NCBI GenBank assembly: GCA_016185345.1
Contig: JACPNS010000003.1
Span: 310,001 to 374,000, forward strand
Direction: 5' to 3'
DNA: 64,000 nucleotides
DNA from: Solirubrobacterales bacterium
GTDB lineage: Bacteria; Actinomycetota; Thermoleophilia; Solirubrobacterales; JACPNS01
Under the pieces are notes generated by a model. That model made no database searches and was not told the DNA's origin. It saw only the letters and a list, made by a program, of their open reading frames with translations. The translations under genes were made by a program, and so were the position numbers. Below, piece by piece: positions 2,811 to 51,619 of this stretch; the stretch's first letter is position 1, and every line of letters starts with the position of its first letter.

Positions 2811-4678
2811 TGATTCTGGTCTCATCTCTCGTCGTTTCGTACTACGCGTTGCGTCACGGGTCCTACTCGTTGCTCGATCGGCAACAAATGGCAGTTTTTG
2901 TATGGGTCGGCGTTGGAGTTGCAGCAATTTGCGGGGTGCTGCCCGCCGTAAAACTGCCTCGCGTACTGCTGGTTCCGTTAATCGCGATCTTGGGCCTCGC
3001 AGCCTGGACGCTGGTTTCCCTGGCCTGGACAGAAAGCGCGGAGCGAACATTCGCTGAGTTCGCACGCATCGTCGGATATCTGGGGGTCGTGATCCTCATC
3101 TGGCTGGGCGTCGGGCGGAGCACTTGGCGTCTAGTCGCCGCGGGCCTGCTGACCGCCGGTGTACTTGTCTGCTTCTTGACCATGCTGAGCCGATTCTGGC
3201 CAGCATTGTTTCCATCGGACACGGTTGCCATTAACTTGAAGACGACACGGATCAACTACCCGTTTGGTTACTGGAATGCCGTAGGTAGCTGGAGCGCGAT
3301 GACGATCACCCTTTGCCTTGCCTACGCGGCCCACGCGCGCTCTGGAATCGTTCGTGGCCTGGCATTGGCGGCGGTGCCCATGTGTTCGATCGGGTTGTAT
3401 CTGGCGCTCTCGCGGGCCGGTTTCGGCGGAGTATTGATTGGCATAATCGTGCTCCTCGTGCTGGCCGAATGGCGGTGGTTGACCTTCATTCAGACGCTTT
3501 TGGCGGCCGTCGGAAGTCTGGTTGTGATCCTCGCTCTGCAGGGACACCGGGAACTGGTCGAGGGAACGGGAAGCGGCGGTGCATGGTCCGTGGCGCTGGT
3601 CCTGACCCTGGTAGGCGGTGTCCTCGCCGCGTTCGCTGCAGTTGGAAGGTCAAAGAGGTTTGGTCAGCGGTTGAAGATGCATCCGATCAGCGGGCGGCGA
3701 TTCTCGATCGCGGTCGTATCGGTGGCGGTCGTCGCGATAGCTTTCCTGGTCGCCGCCTGGGGTGGCAGCGCCTACGACGAGTTCACGGGAGGCGACACCG
3801 GCGCGATCGCAACCAACGACGAAACTCGCCTGCTGCAACTCAACGGCAACAGGAATAATCTGTGGGCCTCTGCGTGGCGCGCCTTCGAGGCCAATCCAAT
3901 CGGCGGCATCGGCGCCGGCACTTTTGAGTTCTGGTGGAGCCGCGACGGGACTAACGGCGAGTTCGTTCGTGATGTGCACAACATCTACCTCGAGGCCCTC
4001 GCCGAACAGGGTGTCGTCGGACTGGTTCTGCTTCTGGCGGTGTTCCTTGGGCTGCTGCTCGCTGCATGGCGGGCGCGTTCCCCACTGATGGAGCGAGATC
4101 GCGGTGCCGTCGGTGTTCAGGCGGGGCTGATCGCTGTATTCGCTGGATTCATGTTCCAAGCCGGGGTCGACTGGATGTGGGAGTCAACGGCGGTGGCCGT
4201 TTTCGCGCTCGTTGCGGTCGCGATCGCGTCCGTAGTTTCGAGCGAACCTCGAGATGCTCCGGCCGGCGCGACCAGGTCTGTCGGACTTTTGCTTCTTTCG
4301 CTGCTCGCGGTAATAACGATGTTCGCTGGACTCTCGAACGCCAGGCAAATCGAAAAGAGCCAGAACGCCTTCAGGGCAGCGGATTACAAAAACTCCCTCG
4401 CGGCGGCTGACGACGCGATCAGGGCCGAGAGCTGGAGTGCGACCGCCTATGGGCAACGTGCATTGGCGCTGCTGAAGCTGGGCGAGCTGGGGCAGGCGCA
4501 GGCGGCGATTGACCTGGCCGAGCAGAAGGAACCGACCAACTGGCGTTGGCCGCTGATCACCCTGCAGATCGCGATCGCGGATGGCGACCCAATCGGTGCG
4601 GTCGAGGCCAGGCGCCGCGCGCTCAAGTTGAGGCGCTTCTCCAAGTCGCTCGGTGAGCGTTCGCCGGGAGTTCGCTGA
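2744..4678 (+). CDS. O-antigen ligase/polymerase family membrane protein with C-terminal TPR region
   Basis: 644-residue polytopic membrane protein with about 12 hydrophobic segments up to about residue 530, then a soluble TPR-like tail (about 540-644). The Wzy_C/O-antigen ligase signature is clear around residues 360-430: GNRNNLWASAWRAF, NPIGGIGAGTFEFWW, then DVHNIYLEALAEQG. Such proteins join or polymerise lipid-linked glycan units outside the membrane. The Gram-positive-like context suggests capsule or wall glycan rather than LPS. The TPR tail ends in TNWRWPLITLQIAIADGD and LRRF; a second decayed copy of this unit follows the stop codon (4679-4852). The start is supported by the adjacent -10 box and lack of a Shine-Dalgarno. 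Convergent with the pyruvyl transferase gene. Confidence 0.88.
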   Translation: MAENVTKLGPAPAGLGWLLRLSLILVSSLVVSYYALRHGSYSLLDRQQMAVFVWVGVGVAAICGVLPAVKLPRVLLVPLIAILGLAAWTLVSLAWTESAERTFAEFARIVGYLGVVILIWLGVGRSTWRLVAAGLLTAGVLVCFLTMLSRFWPALFPSDTVAINLKTTRINYPFGYWNAVGSWSAMTITLCLAYAAHARSGIVRGLALAAVPMCSIGLYLALSRAGFGGVLIGIIVLLVLAEWRWLTFIQTLLAAVGSLVVILALQGHRELVEGTGSGGAWSVALVLTLVGGVLAAFAAVGRSKRFGQRLKMHPISGRRFSIAVVSVAVVAIAFLVAAWGGSAYDEFTGGDTGAIATNDETRLLQLNGNRNNLWASAWRAFEANPIGGIGAGTFEFWWSRDGTNGEFVRDVHNIYLEALAEQGVVGLVLLLAVFLGLLLAAWRARSPLMERDRGAVGVQAGLIAVFAGFMFQAGVDWMWESTAVAVFALVAVAIASVVSSEPRDAPAGATRSVGLLLLSLLAVITMFAGLSNARQIEKSQNAFRAADYKNSLAAADDAIRAESWSATAYGQRALALLKLGELGQAQAAIDLAEQKEPTNWRWPLITLQIAIADGDPIGAVEARRRALKLRRFSKSLGERSPGVR

Positions 4679-14166: not shown

Positions 14167-15279
14167 ATGGCCCAACGTGGTGTAGAAGAGTCAGTAGAAC
14201 TGCACAACAGGTTGGAGCCGAAGCTTCTCAGGGCCTTGGAGATGATCGCTCCGGGCTCGTTCATCCGCGAAGGAATCGACGAAGTGCTGCAAGGCGGCAC
14301 CGGCGCGTTGATCATTATTGGCGAACCCGAAGAGCTCGCTTTTATGTTCTCAGGTGGCATCAAGATTGACCTTGACTACCAGCCAGCCATGTTGTACCAA
14401 GTCGCGAAGATGGATGGCGCCATCGTCCTCAGCTCCAATGCATCAAAGATCGCCTGGGCCAACGTCCAGCTGATGCCGGACCCCACGATCCACTCCGTCG
14501 AGACCGGCACCCGCCACCGCACCGCCGAGCGTGTCGCCAAGCAGTCCGACGCGATCGTCCTCGCGATCAGCGCAAGACGAGAAGTCGTATCCCTTTACGT
14601 CGACAACGCCAAGTACGTAATGGTCGACATCCCCGAGGTCCTCGCGAAGGCCAACCAAGCTCTCGTGACTCTTGACAAGTACCGCCGCCGACTTGACCAG
14701 GTAAGTGCCCGCCTCACCCTTCTGGAGTTCGAAGGCCGCACGTACATGCACGATGTCCTCACCGTCCTCCAACGGGCCGAGCTGATCACACGCATGTCCG
14801 TAGAAGTTGAGCGCTACATCGTCGAGCTCGGCACCGAAGGCCGATTGATCGAGATGCAGCTCGAGGAAACGATGATCGGCGTCGCCGCCGAGAAACACGG
14901 CCTCGTACGCGACTACATGACGCAGGACACCGACGAGACCTACGGCCAGGTCGTCGATCACCTCGCGCGCATGCCCCACCAAGACCTTCTTGACTTCGGT
15001 CGCCTGGCAGAGCTGCTGGGCTACGACCGCAAGATGAACACCATCGACTACGCGGTGGCTCCGCGCGGCTACCGGATCCTCTCAAGGATTCCGCGTCTGC
15101 CGAAGATGGTGGTCCACGACATCGTCAACGAGTTTGGCGGTCTGGACGAATTGCTCAGCGCCGATGATTCCGAGCTGGAAGCGGTCGAAGGCGTGGGCGA
15201 CGTACGTGCAAAAGACATCCGGGAGGGCCTCAAGCGCCTCCAGGAGATCAACTTGGTGGATCGGTACATGCAGGCCTGA
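14167..15279 (+). CDS. disA: DNA integrity scanning diadenylate cyclase DisA
   Basis: 370 residues, full length. DisA converts two ATP to cyclic di-AMP and monitors branched DNA. The N-terminal DAC domain carries the DGA motif (83-85, KMDGAIVLS) and RHRT (116-119, GTRHRTAERVA), both needed for catalysis. A helical spine follows (about 145-290), and the C-terminal helix-hairpin-helix DNA-binding region contains GLDELLSADDSELEAVEGVGDVRAKDI. It sits just before carD and ispD, the same neighbourhood as in mycobacteria and Bacillus, but radA is not adjacent. A c-di-AMP riboswitch occurs at 45.9 kb of this window, so the product has at least one plausible local RNA target. Confidence 0.97.
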   Translation: MAQRGVEESVELHNRLEPKLLRALEMIAPGSFIREGIDEVLQGGTGALIIIGEPEELAFMFSGGIKIDLDYQPAMLYQVAKMDGAIVLSSNASKIAWANVQLMPDPTIHSVETGTRHRTAERVAKQSDAIVLAISARREVVSLYVDNAKYVMVDIPEVLAKANQALVTLDKYRRRLDQVSARLTLLEFEGRTYMHDVLTVLQRAELITRMSVEVERYIVELGTEGRLIEMQLEETMIGVAAEKHGLVRDYMTQDTDETYGQVVDHLARMPHQDLLDFGRLAELLGYDRKMNTIDYAVAPRGYRILSRIPRLPKMVVHDIVNEFGGLDELLSADDSELEAVEGVGDVRAKDIREGLKRLQEINLVDRYMQA

Positions 15280-44828: not shown

Positions 44829-45764
44829 CTACTCGCCGTCCGTGCCGATCGCGGCCGAGCAGGTGACGTTGCCCTTGGTCGCGCCGGAAACGATCACGTT
44901 CACCGAGTAGGCGACTGATCGCAACAGTGTCTCAGCGGCCAAGTTCTTGTCGGACGTGGCGTCGGTCAGGATTGCGTTCTTGGCGATATCGAGCTTGAAC
45001 GCAACGGCGGCCGCCTGGGGGTCGTTCTCGGCCCACGGCACGGTGACGACCTGAGCCTTGCCTGAGCGCGCCTCGCTAGTGGTCCTGCTCACGTCTGCGT
45101 CGGTCGCCGTGTCGGCACCGCGCTCGGTCAGTTGAGCGACCAGCCTGAATCCGTAGCGGCGAGCGAGGTAGTCGAGGTCGTCGTGCCCCGAGACGACGCG
45201 AAGCTTTCCGCCCTTCGGGAGGTCAATGCAGTATTGGAGTGAGTCGTCCATGTTCTGGACCTTTCCGAGATAAGTCGCGAGGTTTGCGTCGTAGGTCGCT
45301 TTCGCGCGCGGATTCGCCTTGGTCAGCTCGCTTGCCACCTTCGTCGCGGCCAGCTTGACGTTTCGAAGATCCGTGTACCAATGAGAATTGATCTTGCCCT
45401 CGTTGCGGATGATCTTCGCGGACTCAGAAAGATCGACAACCTTGCTCTCGGCCTTGGCCTCGGTGATCGCGGGCTCGATCCAGGGGTCCATGTCGCCACC
45501 AGAACGAAAGACCAGTTTGGCCTTGCCGACTGAACTCGCAGCATCCGATGGCGGCGTCCAGGTGTGGGTATTCACCAATGGTCGAGCAAGTCCGGTGACT
45601 TTCACCGCCGTGCCGCCAACCTCGCTCACAAGATCGGCCATCTGGCTTGTGGTGGCGACAACGCTTGGTGCGGGAGCAGGATCGTCTCCTGCTCCGCAGC
45701 CGGAGAGCGCAACAACCATCGCAATCACCACGAGTACGCAGGCACGAGTCCACAAACGATTCAT
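44829..45764 (-). CDS. Metal-binding ABC-type lipoprotein (ZnuA/TroA family)
   Basis: 311 residues from ATG 45764, with GGGGG about 9 nt upstream. Lipobox VVALSGC. TroA-like cluster: VVATTSQMADLVSEVGG, a first His in NTHTWTP where the usual loop is DPHxYEP, HWYTD, GHDDLDYLARRYGF, then WAENDP. Three candidate His ligands are kept but the acidic residue before the first His is replaced, so metal preference may differ from the ZnuA domain encoded at 49.8 kb. It is an orphan, with no permease or ATPase adjacent in its operon. Confidence 0.85.
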   Translation of the reverse strand: MNRLWTRACVLVVIAMVVALSGCGAGDDPAPAPSVVATTSQMADLVSEVGGTAVKVTGLARPLVNTHTWTPPSDAASSVGKAKLVFRSGGDMDPWIEPAITEAKAESKVVDLSESAKIIRNEGKINSHWYTDLRNVKLAATKVASELTKANPRAKATYDANLATYLGKVQNMDDSLQYCIDLPKGGKLRVVSGHDDLDYLARRYGFRLVAQLTERGADTATDADVSRTTSEARSGKAQVVTVPWAENDPQAAAVAFKLDIAKNAILTDATSDKNLAAETLLRSVAYSVNVIVSGATKGNVTCSAAIGTDGE

Positions 45765-45871
45765 CCAAAAACCCCCTTGCGCGCATCCCACGCGCGCTCT
45801 TGATCGGGCTGATTCCTACCAGATCCAGACCGAAGTTCTTCCGTAAACTACGTATTTCCAGCAATTAAGGC

Positions 45872-45900
45872 TTGACCAACTACCGCCGATCCGTTATAGT
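45872..45900 (+). promoter_or_regulatory. Sigma-70-type promoter for the riboswitch transcript
   Basis: TTGACC (45872-45877), 17-nt spacer, TATAGT (45895-45900). The start would be near 45906, at the 5' edge of the aptamer. Confidence 0.8.
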
Positions 45901-45904
45901 GGCC

Positions 45905-46060
45905 GACAGCGCTGAATGACCAAGCCTGCCAGGCGAGGTCAGCGGGGGACCCAAATCCCCGGGGCGAATTGCAGTCGTTAGGACTGCATAGCGTGCAGGT
46001 ATCTGACCGAGATCAGGATCCATACGCGAGCCCGACAGCTAACTCCGTAAGCGCGTTGTC
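45905..46060 (+). ncRNA. Cyclic di-AMP riboswitch (ydaO/yuaA class)
   Basis: Conserved elements of the class occur in order: GCGCTGAATGACC at the 5' side, CAGCGGGGGACCCAAAT, CGGGGCGAATTGCAG, and GACAGCTAACTCCGTAAGCGC at the 3' side. The P1 helix closes GCGCT (45909-45913) with AGCGC (46050-46054). The long leader to ATG 46300 carries GTCTC-TCTG-GAGAC near 46058 and a GC hairpin at 46263-46278 as possible expression-platform parts. In actinobacteria this class typically precedes wall-hydrolase genes, and an M23 peptidase follows here. In Bacillus, c-di-AMP turns such genes off. Confidence 0.93.
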
Positions 46061-46262
46061 TCTCTGGAGACTGTTGGCACCCAATATGTACCGACGTCGC
46101 CAATGACGTTGTCAACCTTGCACCTCGCGTGCGCGCTGGCCGGATCCTCAGGCAACCACAGCCGCATACGGGCTTGCAGGTTGTCATATAGAAGCAGGAA
46201 ATTTCCAAGAAACACGGATTTCATTTCTAGCCTCGAACGGCCTACGCGAACCCTTCGCCCTG

Positions 46263-46278
46263 GGCGGCTCAGGCCGCC
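46263..46278 (+). promoter_or_regulatory. Hairpin near the M23 start codon, possible expression platform
   Basis: GGCGGC-TCAG-GCCGCC, 21 nt before ATG 46300, no T tract. Could mask the initiation region or act as a factor-dependent terminator. 46061-46262 otherwise shows no gene. Confidence 0.4.
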
Positions 46279-46299
46279 GACCCCAAACCCCACCTAAAT

Positions 46300-47469
46300 A
46301 TGCCTCGACTAATCCACACGAATTTCCGCGCAATCCTCTGGATCTGCATCATCTTCACTGCGTTGAGCGCGCTTTATCTAGCACGGCCGTTGGGCTCGAG
46401 TGCGAAGAGTTCCGCCGAGTTGCAGAACAACATCGCAAAGAAATCGACCAGGGCGAGCTCGCTCAGCAGTGACATCACCCGCATGTCGGGCAAGATTCAG
46501 GGTCTCCGTGGCCGCATCGCCAAGCTGCAGGAGCGTCAAAACTCGATCCAGACCAACCTGGACGCAAAGGCCGCCCGTCAGAAAAAGATCGCCAACGCAC
46601 TCAGCGTTTCGCGGGAGCGCCTGTCCCGCCTGCGCGGGCAGCTGGCGCGCTCTCGCGAGCTCTTGAAAGCTCGCATCGTTGCGGTGTACAAGCAGGGCGA
46701 GCCGAACATGATTCAGGTGGTGCTCAGCTCCCGCGGGTTCGTTGACATGGTTGAACGTGCCACATACATGGAACGAATCGCGAGGCAGGATCACAGGATC
46801 ATCACTAGGGTCACGCGTTTGAAGGGGCAGACGAAGAACGAGACAGTCAAACTCGCCGGCCTCGAAAAGAAGGCCTCGCGACTGGTGGCCGAGGTCCGTA
46901 GCGAACGCGACCGTGTCGCCGGTGCCAAGGGCACTCTCGCCGCTCAGCGCAACGAATTGAACGCCGCTGTCGGCAGCAGAAAGAGCAAACTCGCTGTCGT
47001 CTCGAAAAGCCTGCGCCGCGACAGGGATGACCTCGCCGCGATGCAAGCCAGCAACGGCGCGATCGTCGGAGCCCTCGACGAAAGCGCGCCGATCAAGAAG
47101 GGCTCAGGCCAGCTGATCTGGCCGGTGAACGGACAGATCACTTCTCCGTTTGGCAACCGCTGGGGACGCCTTCACGGCGGACTCGACATCGCGGTGCCGA
47201 TGGGCACCGCCGTCCGCGCCGCGGACTCAGGAACGGTTCGCATCGCTGGCTTGATGGGCGGATACGGAAACTTCGTCTGCGTGCAGCATTCGAGCTCGAT
47301 GAGCACGTGCTACGCCCACAACGGTCCGCTGGCTGTCAGGGTGGGCCAATCGGTCAAAAAGGGCCAGACGGTCGCTGCGTCTGGCAATTCCGGACTCTCC
47401 ACGGGCCCGCACCTTCACTTCGAAGTGCGCATCAACGGCAATCGGGTCGACCCGATGGGCTACCTCTAG
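46300..47469 (+). CDS. M23-family peptidoglycan endopeptidase with coiled coil (EnvC-like)
   Basis: 389 residues. One N-terminal TM/signal anchor (AILWICIIFTALSALYLA), a long coiled coil (about 35-255) similar to EnvC/PcsB-type regulators, then a LytM/M23 domain (about 275-389): WPVNGQITSPFGNRWGRLHGGLDIAVPMGTAVRAADSGTV, YGNFVCVQHSSSMSTCYAHN, TGPHLHFEVRINGNRVDPMGYL. Zinc ligands (His and Asp of HGGLDIA, and HLH) are intact, so it may be catalytically active. It is under the c-di-AMP riboswitch, coupling wall cleavage to c-di-AMP level. The 3' end overlaps lgt by 4 nt, tail to tail. Confidence 0.93.
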   Translation: MPRLIHTNFRAILWICIIFTALSALYLARPLGSSAKSSAELQNNIAKKSTRASSLSSDITRMSGKIQGLRGRIAKLQERQNSIQTNLDAKAARQKKIANALSVSRERLSRLRGQLARSRELLKARIVAVYKQGEPNMIQVVLSSRGFVDMVERATYMERIARQDHRIITRVTRLKGQTKNETVKLAGLEKKASRLVAEVRSERDRVAGAKGTLAAQRNELNAAVGSRKSKLAVVSKSLRRDRDDLAAMQASNGAIVGALDESAPIKKGSGQLIWPVNGQITSPFGNRWGRLHGGLDIAVPMGTAVRAADSGTVRIAGLMGGYGNFVCVQHSSSMSTCYAHNGPLAVRVGQSVKKGQTVAASGNSGLSTGPHLHFEVRINGNRVDPMGYL

Positions 47470-49065: not shown

Positions 49066-49835
49066 CCGTCGTGGTAGTGGTCACGACCGCAGGTGTCGGC
49101 CGTCGCAAGCACCGGCCGACCGTCCACATCGCCGATCACTGTCAGATCTGCGGCATAGGTTTCGCGTAGCTTCGCGTCGGTCAGGACCACGAACGGAGCG
49201 CCGTCGGCGACCACCCTCCCGTTAAGGCAGATCACGCGATCGGCAATGCGCGCGTGTTCGATGTCGTGTGAGGCCTCGATCACCAGTCGGCCCTCGTCGC
49301 GAAGGCTGCCGAGCGTCGCTCGGATGACCGCGGCCGAGCTTGGGTCGACGCCCGCCAGTGGTTCGTCCAGCGCGATCACTTCGGCGCCGCCGACAATCGT
49401 GCGCGCGAGCAACACGCGCCGACGCTGACCGCCAGAGAGTTCGCCGTAGGTTCGATCTGCGCTTCCGGCCAAGCCGACGCGTTCGAGCGCAGCAATTGAT
49501 CGTTGCTTCTCAGCCCGTCGTGCGCGCTGCCAGAAGCGACGTTCCGAAAGTGTCCCCATCAACACGACGTCGAGCGCCGAGACGGGAAAATCGCTTCGGG
49601 AGCTGTCGTGCTGGGGCAGGTAGGCAACCTTCGACTCGACCGCGATCGTGCCATGGATCGGCTGAAGTTCACCGACCAGCGCACGAAGGAATGTCGTTTT
49701 GCCGCCGCCGTTGGGACCGAGCAGAATCACGAGCTCGCCGGCTGGCAGCTCGACCGAAAGCTCCGTCAGCGCCGGCTCGCCTGAGTCATAGGCGAGGGTC
49801 GCGTGGTCCGCATGGATTAGTCGGTCGCCGGGCAA
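49062..49835 (-). CDS. Metal ABC transporter ATP-binding protein (ZnuC family)
   Basis: 257 residues, start TTG 49835 behind GGGGAG. Walker A LLGPNGGGKTT, Q loop YLPQHD, signature YGELSGGQRRRVLLAR, Walker B VIALDEPLAG, H loop IEASHDIEHA. The end is unusually His/Cys rich (TCGRDHYHDG), a possible metal-sensing tail. It overlaps the upstream fusion gene by 19 nt and the downstream permease by 4 nt. Confidence 0.93.
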   Translation of the reverse strand: MPGDRLIHADHATLAYDSGEPALTELSVELPAGELVILLGPNGGGKTTFLRALVGELQPIHGTIAVESKVAYLPQHDSSRSDFPVSALDVVLMGTLSERRFWQRARRAEKQRSIAALERVGLAGSADRTYGELSGGQRRRVLLARTIVGGAEVIALDEPLAGVDPSSAAVIRATLGSLRDEGRLVIEASHDIEHARIADRVICLNGRVVADGAPFVVLTDAKLRETYAADLTVIGDVDGRPVLATADTCGRDHYHDG

Positions 49836-51619
49836 CGGACTCTCCCCGAAGTCACAGTGTTTGCGATTCGGTCGACGTCATATTCGATCGCACCGAGCAA
49901 CGTCGAGGCATCGTCGCCGGTGGTGAGATTGTCGGCGTACAACGCGAGCAACGGAACCCTCAGCTTCTGAGCGACCTGCTGCTCTCGACTCGTGACCGCG
50001 CCCTTGCTCGCGATGACTGCGTCTACATTTGCTCCGCGGGCCTGGTCGACTGCATCCTGCAACCCCCTCGTGGAGGGTTCTGACCCGCCACTGCTTGCGG
50101 CCTGCGCAGCAATCTGAAACCCGAACGACTGCGCCAGATAGGCGAAGTCGTTGTGGCCAGCCATCAGCTTGCGGTCGGCCGCTGGGATCTTGCTCGCGCA
50201 CTTGGCGAGCTTCTGGTCCGACGCGTCGATCTCATCGAGATACTGAGTTGCGTTGGTTCGGAAGGTCTCACGCGCCGACGGGTCGGCCTTGATCAACTCA
50301 TCGCGAACGCGCTGCGTCGCGCGCGCGACGTTCTGCGGCGCGAGGTACCAGTGGGCGTTGTAGCCCTCGCCGGATTCGCCGGCCGGAATCAGAAGCACGG
50401 AACGCGATAGATCCACTGGCGCGTAGGCCGGGTTGGCTGCCTTCACCGCAGGGAGCAGCCATGCATCGAGGTCGCCGCCAGAGCGGACCACGACATCAGC
50501 ATCGGAGATCGCAGCCACTGCCCCGCGCTTGGGCTCGTAGTCATGGGGGTCGGCGCCGGGCGAAAGTAGAGTGGTGACCTCGACCGCATCGCCGCCGACA
50601 CGATTGACGATGTCTGCGACCTGTGGGGTGGTGGAGACGACCTTCAACGTCGCGTCGCTGTCCGAGGTCTCGCCGGTAGCTCCGCCGCCGCAGCCGCCAA
50701 CTGCCACCGCGACGAAGCTGATCAGCGCAATCGATGCGGCCAGGCGCAGCGGAGTACGCGCGCTGCGCAGCGAGAGCAGGCCGGCCACTGCGAAGAATCC
50801 GAGGCCGGCCACGCCGGCAATCGCCGCGCCGGTCGGCAGATCAAAGTTGAGCGAGAGATAGAGCCCGGTAGCGCCCTCGACTAGCGCGAGCGCGAAGATC
50901 AGCAACGGCAGTTGCTTCGCGCGATCGGTGAGCATGCGTGCCGTCGCGGCCGGGATGATCAGCAGCGCGCCGGTCAGCAACGAACCTGTGACCGGGAGCG
51001 AGGCGCCAGTTCCGATCGCCACACAGGCGAACAGGGCACTGTCGCTGCGCGATGCGCCGAGGTGGCCGGCGGCACCGTGATCGAATCCGCCGGCGAGCCA
51101 ACGGTCGTACGCGAACCAGGCGGTTGTGACCACGACCAGAGTCACAATCGCGAGCGCGGTGAGCGTCTCGGTGTTGACCGTCAAGAGCGATCCAAAAAGC
51201 AACGCCTCGGGTGGGATCTCGAGCCGCGTGTCTCCGAAGCCAGCGCGTGCGGCGAGCACAGCGCCAACCGCCAAGGCCCCCGCGACCGCAAGCCCCGTCA
51301 ATGCGTCGCGACGTCCAAAGTTCGCCTCGTTCGCATGCGCCCGGCCAATCCCGGTGACAATTCCAATAAACAGCGCAAAGGCCAGCGCTCCCGCAAGCGC
51401 CGAGATCGCGATCGATACCCCGGTGAGAATGCCGAGCACTATCACCGGGTACGCGCCTGCACCAATTGCGTGGATGAAAAAGGGAAGATCGCGCAGAACT
51501 ATCGCCCCGCCGAGCGCCGCAGCCACCAGGGCAAGCATCAGAACAGCGAGCAGAGCGCGTTGTGCGAACACAGGTGCAAAGAGGTCGAACGGATTTTCAA
51601 GTGCGGCGGATAAGGTCAT
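49817..51619 (-). CDS. Fusion of ABC metal permease (ZnuB-like) and substrate-binding domain (ZnuA-like)
   Basis: 600 residues in one frame. Residues about 1-290 form a polytopic ABC-3 permease (FFIHAIGAGAYPVIVLGILTGVSIAISALAGALAFALF, HANEANFGRRDALTGLAVAG, LLFGSLLTVNTETL, FACVAIGTGASLPVTGSLLTGALLIIPAATARMLTDR). A last hydrophobic helix (LAASIALISFVAVAVGGC) leads into a complete TroA-type binding domain (about 320-600): VVSTTPQVADIVNRVGG, GADPHDYEPKRG, AHWYLAPQN, MAGHNDFAYLAQSFGFQ and ALYADNLTT. The helix resembles a lipoprotein signal (VGGC), so an ancestral ZnuA lipoprotein was probably fused to the permease end. It heads the operon. Confidence 0.92.
   Translation of the reverse strand: MTLSAALENPFDLFAPVFAQRALLAVLMLALVAAALGGAIVLRDLPFFIHAIGAGAYPVIVLGILTGVSIAISALAGALAFALFIGIVTGIGRAHANEANFGRRDALTGLAVAGALAVGAVLAARAGFGDTRLEIPPEALLFGSLLTVNTETLTALAIVTLVVVTTAWFAYDRWLAGGFDHGAAGHLGASRSDSALFACVAIGTGASLPVTGSLLTGALLIIPAATARMLTDRAKQLPLLIFALALVEGATGLYLSLNFDLPTGAAIAGVAGLGFFAVAGLLSLRSARTPLRLAASIALISFVAVAVGGCGGGATGETSDSDATLKVVSTTPQVADIVNRVGGDAVEVTTLLSPGADPHDYEPKRGAVAAISDADVVVRSGGDLDAWLLPAVKAANPAYAPVDLSRSVLLIPAGESGEGYNAHWYLAPQNVARATQRVRDELIKADPSARETFRTNATQYLDEIDASDQKLAKCASKIPAADRKLMAGHNDFAYLAQSFGFQIAAQAASSGGSEPSTRGLQDAVDQARGANVDAVIASKGAVTSREQQVAQKLRVPLLALYADNLTTGDDASTLLGAIEYDVDRIANTVTSGRVRCPATD

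Follow-up and report, generated by a model that had tools for sequence, protein, structure and literature searches.

Among the Actinobacteria, nearly all genes preceded by c-di-AMP riboswitches are related to the cell wall (PMC9960051), and two of these systems are the closest described counterparts of the locus presented here. The nlpC riboswitch of Corynebacterium glutamicum functions as an off-switch: c-di-AMP decreased the amount of a reporter protein and not that of its transcript, which makes the control translational, and a second gene having its own ribosome binding site was unaffected by the switch (PMC9960051). The Streptomyces rpfA riboswitch has no canonical terminator (PMC9960051), and premature transcription termination was reported for it in S. 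coelicolor (PMC10117811). A literature search for c-di-AMP in combination with Thermoleophilia returned, judged by titles and abstracts, no paper on riboswitches.

The locus analyzed here is part of a 64,000-nucleotide stretch of DNA (the window, to which coordinates refer unless another locus is named), and is comprised of a promoter, a c-di-AMP riboswitch, a long leader and a gene for an M23 endopeptidase. Riboswitches were searched in 61 genomes: the window's own, four of the same genus, and the remainder from the same Thermoleophilia-like order. The genomes compared are drafts, that of the window being in 22 contigs.

Promoter and riboswitch aptamer

A sigma-70-type promoter on the forward strand (45872-45900), composed of TTGACC (45872-45877), a 17-nt spacer and TATAGT (45895-45900), matches the consensus at 10 of 12 positions. 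It is the sole promoter-like site within 45780-46400, where shuffled sequences average 0.3, and the closest relative, locus L066, has identical hexamers and spacing, with 26 of 29 positions the same. The promoter sits at the 5' edge of a c-di-AMP (ydaO/yuaA) riboswitch aptamer, and the transcription start was taken to be near 45907. The aptamer (45900-46067, + strand; paired core approximately 45909-46056) matches the full RF00379 model (positions 1-134) at E 1.2e-9, its 53.7 bits exceeding the gathering score of 38. An earlier note, which had described a consensus promoter and an aptamer with intact P1 helix and conserved blocks, was thus correct on these points: the sequence has the conserved blocks, and pairing within the aptamer is preserved through compensatory changes, both sides being altered in 16 of 51 predicted pairs, mostly within the aptamer, in a comparison of only five congeneric sequences. 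By all features tested the window RNA is, as far as its sequence tells, a genuine RF00379 member of an ordinary kind, and it would be expected to bind c-di-AMP.

The likely source of this ligand is disA (14167-15279, + strand), which encodes a diadenylate cyclase with DAC and DisA-linker domains (452.6 bits, NCBIfam DisA equivalog cut-off 201); no second gene with a DAC domain was found in the window's genome. The riboswitch thus occurs in the setting of RF00379, the 5' leader of a wall gene (M23) in a genome with a cyclase gene. The earlier note placed disA correctly at 14.2 kb, in the same window as the riboswitch unit; it stands as the ligand source of the cell, but not as a part of the unit, since it lies 31 kb away.

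Riboswitches in the order and their gene context

RF00379 riboswitches were found in all 61 genomes (2-11 per genome, five in that of the window), mostly before genes for wall hydrolases. Among 47 downstream proteins scanned, Peptidase_M23 and the DPBB lytic transglycosylase domain were each found in 11, the PcsB coiled coil in 10, a peptidoglycan-binding domain in seven, a transglycosylase in two and CAP in one, while DCSG...H motifs mark several further proteins as NlpC/P60-like. The connection of c-di-AMP with wall hydrolases thus extends into the Thermoleophilia-like Actinobacteria, with up to 11 copies and at least two in every searched genome. In 37 of the 47 loci the start codon, picked by a simple rule with several poor choices re-examined, is located 11-44 nt past P1, and at 37 of 47 an SD-like purine run lies in the first 30 nt; this spacing suggests translational control across the order. 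Spacers longer than 100 nt were found in the window and at four other loci, all belonging to the window's genus; a sixth candidate, L028, was dismissed after a plausible start codon was recognized at 13 nt.

Several of these loci display gene contexts of their own. Same-strand glutamine synthetase genes (glnA) follow a c-di-AMP riboswitch at a distance of 0.5-2.5 kb in at least 25 of the 61 genomes, counted over the best-scoring riboswitches listed (for example L004, G000:C1:20654-22317, minus strand). Between the two lies, at the loci inspected, either an RlpA-like gene or one for a small membrane protein, the latter of 136 aa in the window's genome. This arrangement may tie c-di-AMP to nitrogen metabolism. 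We know of no described link between this riboswitch and glutamine synthetase, and the sole literature match for the combination concerned PstA. The small membrane proteins directly behind c-di-AMP riboswitches form a family marked by the motif RT-I-G and by a segment RPDRxAxWAVxxGxFLILVA at the terminus (L004:1087-1494 (-), L014:1652-2491, L028:1639-1866, L029:1234-1494 (-) and L009:647-1501 (-), the last fused to peptidoglycan-binding and RlpA-like parts); two members tested had no NCBIfam match. Genome G003 contains a riboswitch for cobalamin (RF00174, 71.8 bits; L072, 4500-4719, + strand) just past an NlpC gene that itself stands behind a c-di-AMP riboswitch. At another locus of G003 (L071, approximately 3922-4044), a 40-codon ORF begins about 4 nt past P1 and its TGA overlaps the M23 ATG (ATGA), making it a possible coupling leader ORF; none of this type was seen in L066 or L070.

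In the window itself, a ZnuA-like gene (44829-45791, - strand), missing from this place in L066, lies between an acyl-CoA dehydrogenase gene and the riboswitch. A 600-aa ORF (49817-51619, - strand) fuses an AztB-like zinc/manganese ABC permease (residues 11-270) with an AztC-like substrate-binding protein (326-587); L066 appears to share this layout, in an open frame truncated where its contig ends.

The M23 gene and its product

The product of the gene behind the leader (46300-47469, + strand) is 389 aa long and comprises an N-terminal membrane anchor or signal, a PcsB/RipC-type coiled coil and a C-terminal M23 domain (Peptidase_M23, E 5.4e-32), as indicated by Pfam, NCBIfam and PDB relatives. 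It had been called EnvC-like; the M23 assignment and the domain layout are borne out, but not the EnvC identity, the EnvC model giving 91.9 against a cut-off of 270, and the protein is likewise under the NCBIfam cut-offs for DipM, NlpD and RipC. EnvC is catalytically dead. The window protein is probably an active-type peptidoglycan endopeptidase, since its zinc-ligand motifs HGGLD (HxxxD) and HLH (HxH) are intact in both sequence and PDB alignments.

The proteins of the window and L066 are 80% identical, and with dN at 0.12 and dS at 1.0 (dN/dS approximately 0.12) the M23 protein is held by purifying selection, much of which may predate the gene loss described below. The window protein has accumulated more unique changes than that of L066 (30 versus 15), which was considered as a sign of relaxed constraint and rejected, because the neighbouring lgt is equally biased (26 versus 9) and the bias is therefore lineage-wide. 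The M23 ATG, approximately 245 nt from P1, has no SD-like site upstream (CCCCACCTAAAT-ATG). The M23 ATG of L066 has none either and lies about 14 nt past the NlpC stop codon, so that M23 translation may plausibly have been coupled to the gene before it in the older arrangement.

Leader structure and loss of an NlpC/P60 gene

The closest relative, L066 (G001:C17, JAEMSX010000035.1), comes from a Thermoleophilaceae metagenome-assembled genome and has the riboswitch at 765-932, a gene for an NlpC/P60-type coiled-coil hydrolase (P0001) at 1064-2227 and the M23 gene from 2244. A second congener, G004 (L070), has the same order of riboswitch, NlpC and M23, its NlpC protein being 66% identical to that of L066. 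P0001 resembles RipC in both its coiled coil and its catalytic portion (E 1.3e-12, under the cut-off of the RipC model). No full-length NlpC match was found in the window's genome, only partial ones, one to the coiled coil of M23 itself and one, at 42%, between the catalytic half and another protein of 212 aa. The M23 tree joins the window and L066 with 100/100 support and places G004 outside them, and since L066 and G004 share the arrangement, their common ancestor with the window had the NlpC gene. Seen through this comparison, the simplest reading is that the gene was deleted in the window's lineage, which left M23 as the gene first in line after the riboswitch.

The leader carries the traces of this event. 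Its length, given earlier as roughly 390 nt, comes to about 393 nt if the transcript begins near 45907, but a plain designed expression platform it is not, being made up beyond the aptamer of a genus-specific spacer of approximately 160 nt and a terminal scar. Directly after P1 the alignments reveal an 18-nt insertion forming a GTCTC/GAGAC hairpin (46055-46072, + strand) that is missing from the other congeneric copies. The spacer (46057-46213, + strand), aligned with L066 and L070, reaches to the old start codon and contains the SD-like AAGCAGGA at 46192-46199. It is followed by a remnant of the 5' end of the NlpC gene (46214-46260, + strand; L066 1064-1110, the start of P0001), in which both ATGs of the L066 gene, its initial codon and a second ATG that follows 10 codons later, are ACG (46214-46216 and 46244-46246), and whose aligned region ends in an exact 15-nt match, GCGAACCCTTCGCCC. 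The deletion junction (46261-46299, + strand) is comprised of about 25 unmatched bases (46261-46285) and the end of the old NlpC-M23 intergenic region, AACCCCACC...AATATG, including a 9-nt exact match to L066 beside the NlpC stop codon. The alignment with L066 is continuous from the promoter through the NlpC start region, and degenerate start and junction together account for the last 86 nt of the leader (46214-46299). The riboswitch would thus have been handed to M23 through a deletion, and the long leader is, by this alignment, partly the scar of the lost gene, a reason for its length that is new here.

As the earlier note had stated, nothing terminator-like is present between the aptamer and M23, i.e. 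no intrinsic terminator as in a Bacillus-type off-switch was found in 46068-46299; the single terminator-like match, at 46359, lies inside the M23 gene and is not above chance. A 64-aa upstream ORF (46103-46297) was rejected as a leader peptide, its ATG not being conserved in L066; the remnant frame is still open over the same coordinates and stops 2 nt before the M23 ATG. A plasmid search with the leader gave no match.

Proposed mechanism and alternatives

We propose an actinobacterial c-di-AMP off-riboswitch with its own promoter, placed ahead of an active-type M23 endopeptidase: DisA would raise c-di-AMP, the aptamer would close, and hydrolase output would drop, most likely through limited translation and not through an intrinsic terminator. 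A recent ancestor would have had an operon with an NlpC/P60 hydrolase of the same coiled-coil layout as its first gene and M23 as its second; with the deletion of the former, M23 would have come first on a transcript that retains the scar. We consider this explanation as a whole probable. Binding of the ligand, a response towards off, control through translation and a continued action on M23 after the loss are inferred. An SD and start codon beside P1, as found at most other loci, do not occur in the window, and the short-range logic is not directly applicable to its M23 gene, which has no SD and starts some 245 nt beyond P1. M23, as a former second gene, might even escape control, since the second gene in C. 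glutamicum, with its own ribosome binding site, is unaffected; and because rpfA is reported to act by premature termination (PMC10117811), the mode in the window could be other than translational. That M23, as the new target after the NlpC loss, is now controlled from this distance via the spacer and the open remnant frame (46103-46297), whether through coupled translation or through a transcriptional mechanism that needs no terminator, is put forward tentatively and seems to us rather doubtful.

The same long spacer and distant start codon, which in the window's genus hamper a direct occlusion of the SD, would be explained if the switch acted on elongation, i.e. by terminator-less premature termination as reported for rpfA (PMC10117811), controlling any following gene including M23 whatever the distance of its start codon. 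The spacer is conserved (mismatch to L066 0.18, versus 0.55 at M23 synonymous sites), which fits this possibility; however, the leader has no terminator-like hairpin, folds just mildly better than shuffles (z -2.1), and a conserved helix suggested by RNAalifold, from the bases after P1 to those before the SD, was rejected as being no better than shuffles. We hold such a mechanism possible, if less than likely. The loss of both NlpC start codons, the absence of an SD at M23, the private 18-nt insertion beside P1 and an RF00379 score that is the lowest among the five copies of the genome could all be taken to mean that the riboswitch is a leftover with no translated target, while the same promoter drives M23 constitutively or weakly. 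Against this, promoter and aptamer have a mismatch to L066 of 0.10, compared with 0.55 at the synonymous sites (a conservation that may predate the loss), and the aptamer scores as well as that of L066 (52.5 bits), where NlpC is present; we judge a leftover unlikely.

Two further explanations concern the gene loss itself. The riboswitch is located directly before M23 in other families of the order (L022, L077, L079, L080 and L082) and also in G003, as it would be if the window arrangement were original and NlpC had been inserted in the relatives. With the window and L066 as sisters at 100/100, G004, placed outside them, having this NlpC at the corresponding position, and the aligned NlpC start region and NlpC-M23 junction retained in the window, such an insertion is highly improbable. 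The draft state of the genome, with its 22 contigs, leaves room for an assembly error, which we find scarcely credible because the start codons have changed (both ATGs to ACG) and the sequences on either side of the gap are diverged, where a collapse would have kept them intact; moreover, the locus lies well within a 398-kb contig. The favoured explanation, deletion of NlpC from behind an off-switch, would provide a clear example of a riboswitch transferred to a new gene by a simple deletion, and the sister pair of the window and L066 constitutes a natural experiment on whether a gene far from P1 can be controlled by a riboswitch that has no terminator.

Comparison with known systems

The earlier suggestion that the off-switch works differently from that of Bacillus stands as regards the terminator but not as a novelty, the C. 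glutamicum nlpC and Streptomyces rpfA riboswitches being likewise without one; terminator-less switching is the usual case in Actinobacteria, and in this order, too, the start codon mostly lies 11-44 nt past P1. With RF00379 the window shares the full-length match, the conserved blocks, the compensatory pairing and the promoter at the 5' edge, and it differs only in the distance to the gene and in the private 18-nt hairpin after P1, the aptamer itself showing no difference. Like the C. glutamicum nlpC riboswitch (PMC9960051), it combines a wall-peptidase gene, the lack of a terminator and a DisA-type cyclase in the cell, but NlpC is the first gene in C. glutamicum, whereas the window has lost NlpC and M23 follows. 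The Streptomyces rpfA riboswitch also has a wall hydrolase as target and no canonical terminator, while the target belongs to a different enzyme family and the reported mode is premature termination. The M23 protein shares with the RipC/PcsB and EnvC-type hydrolases the N-terminal anchor, the PcsB/RipC-related coiled coil and the C-terminal position of the catalytic domain, and it differs from them by an M23 catalytic domain with intact zinc-ligand motifs.
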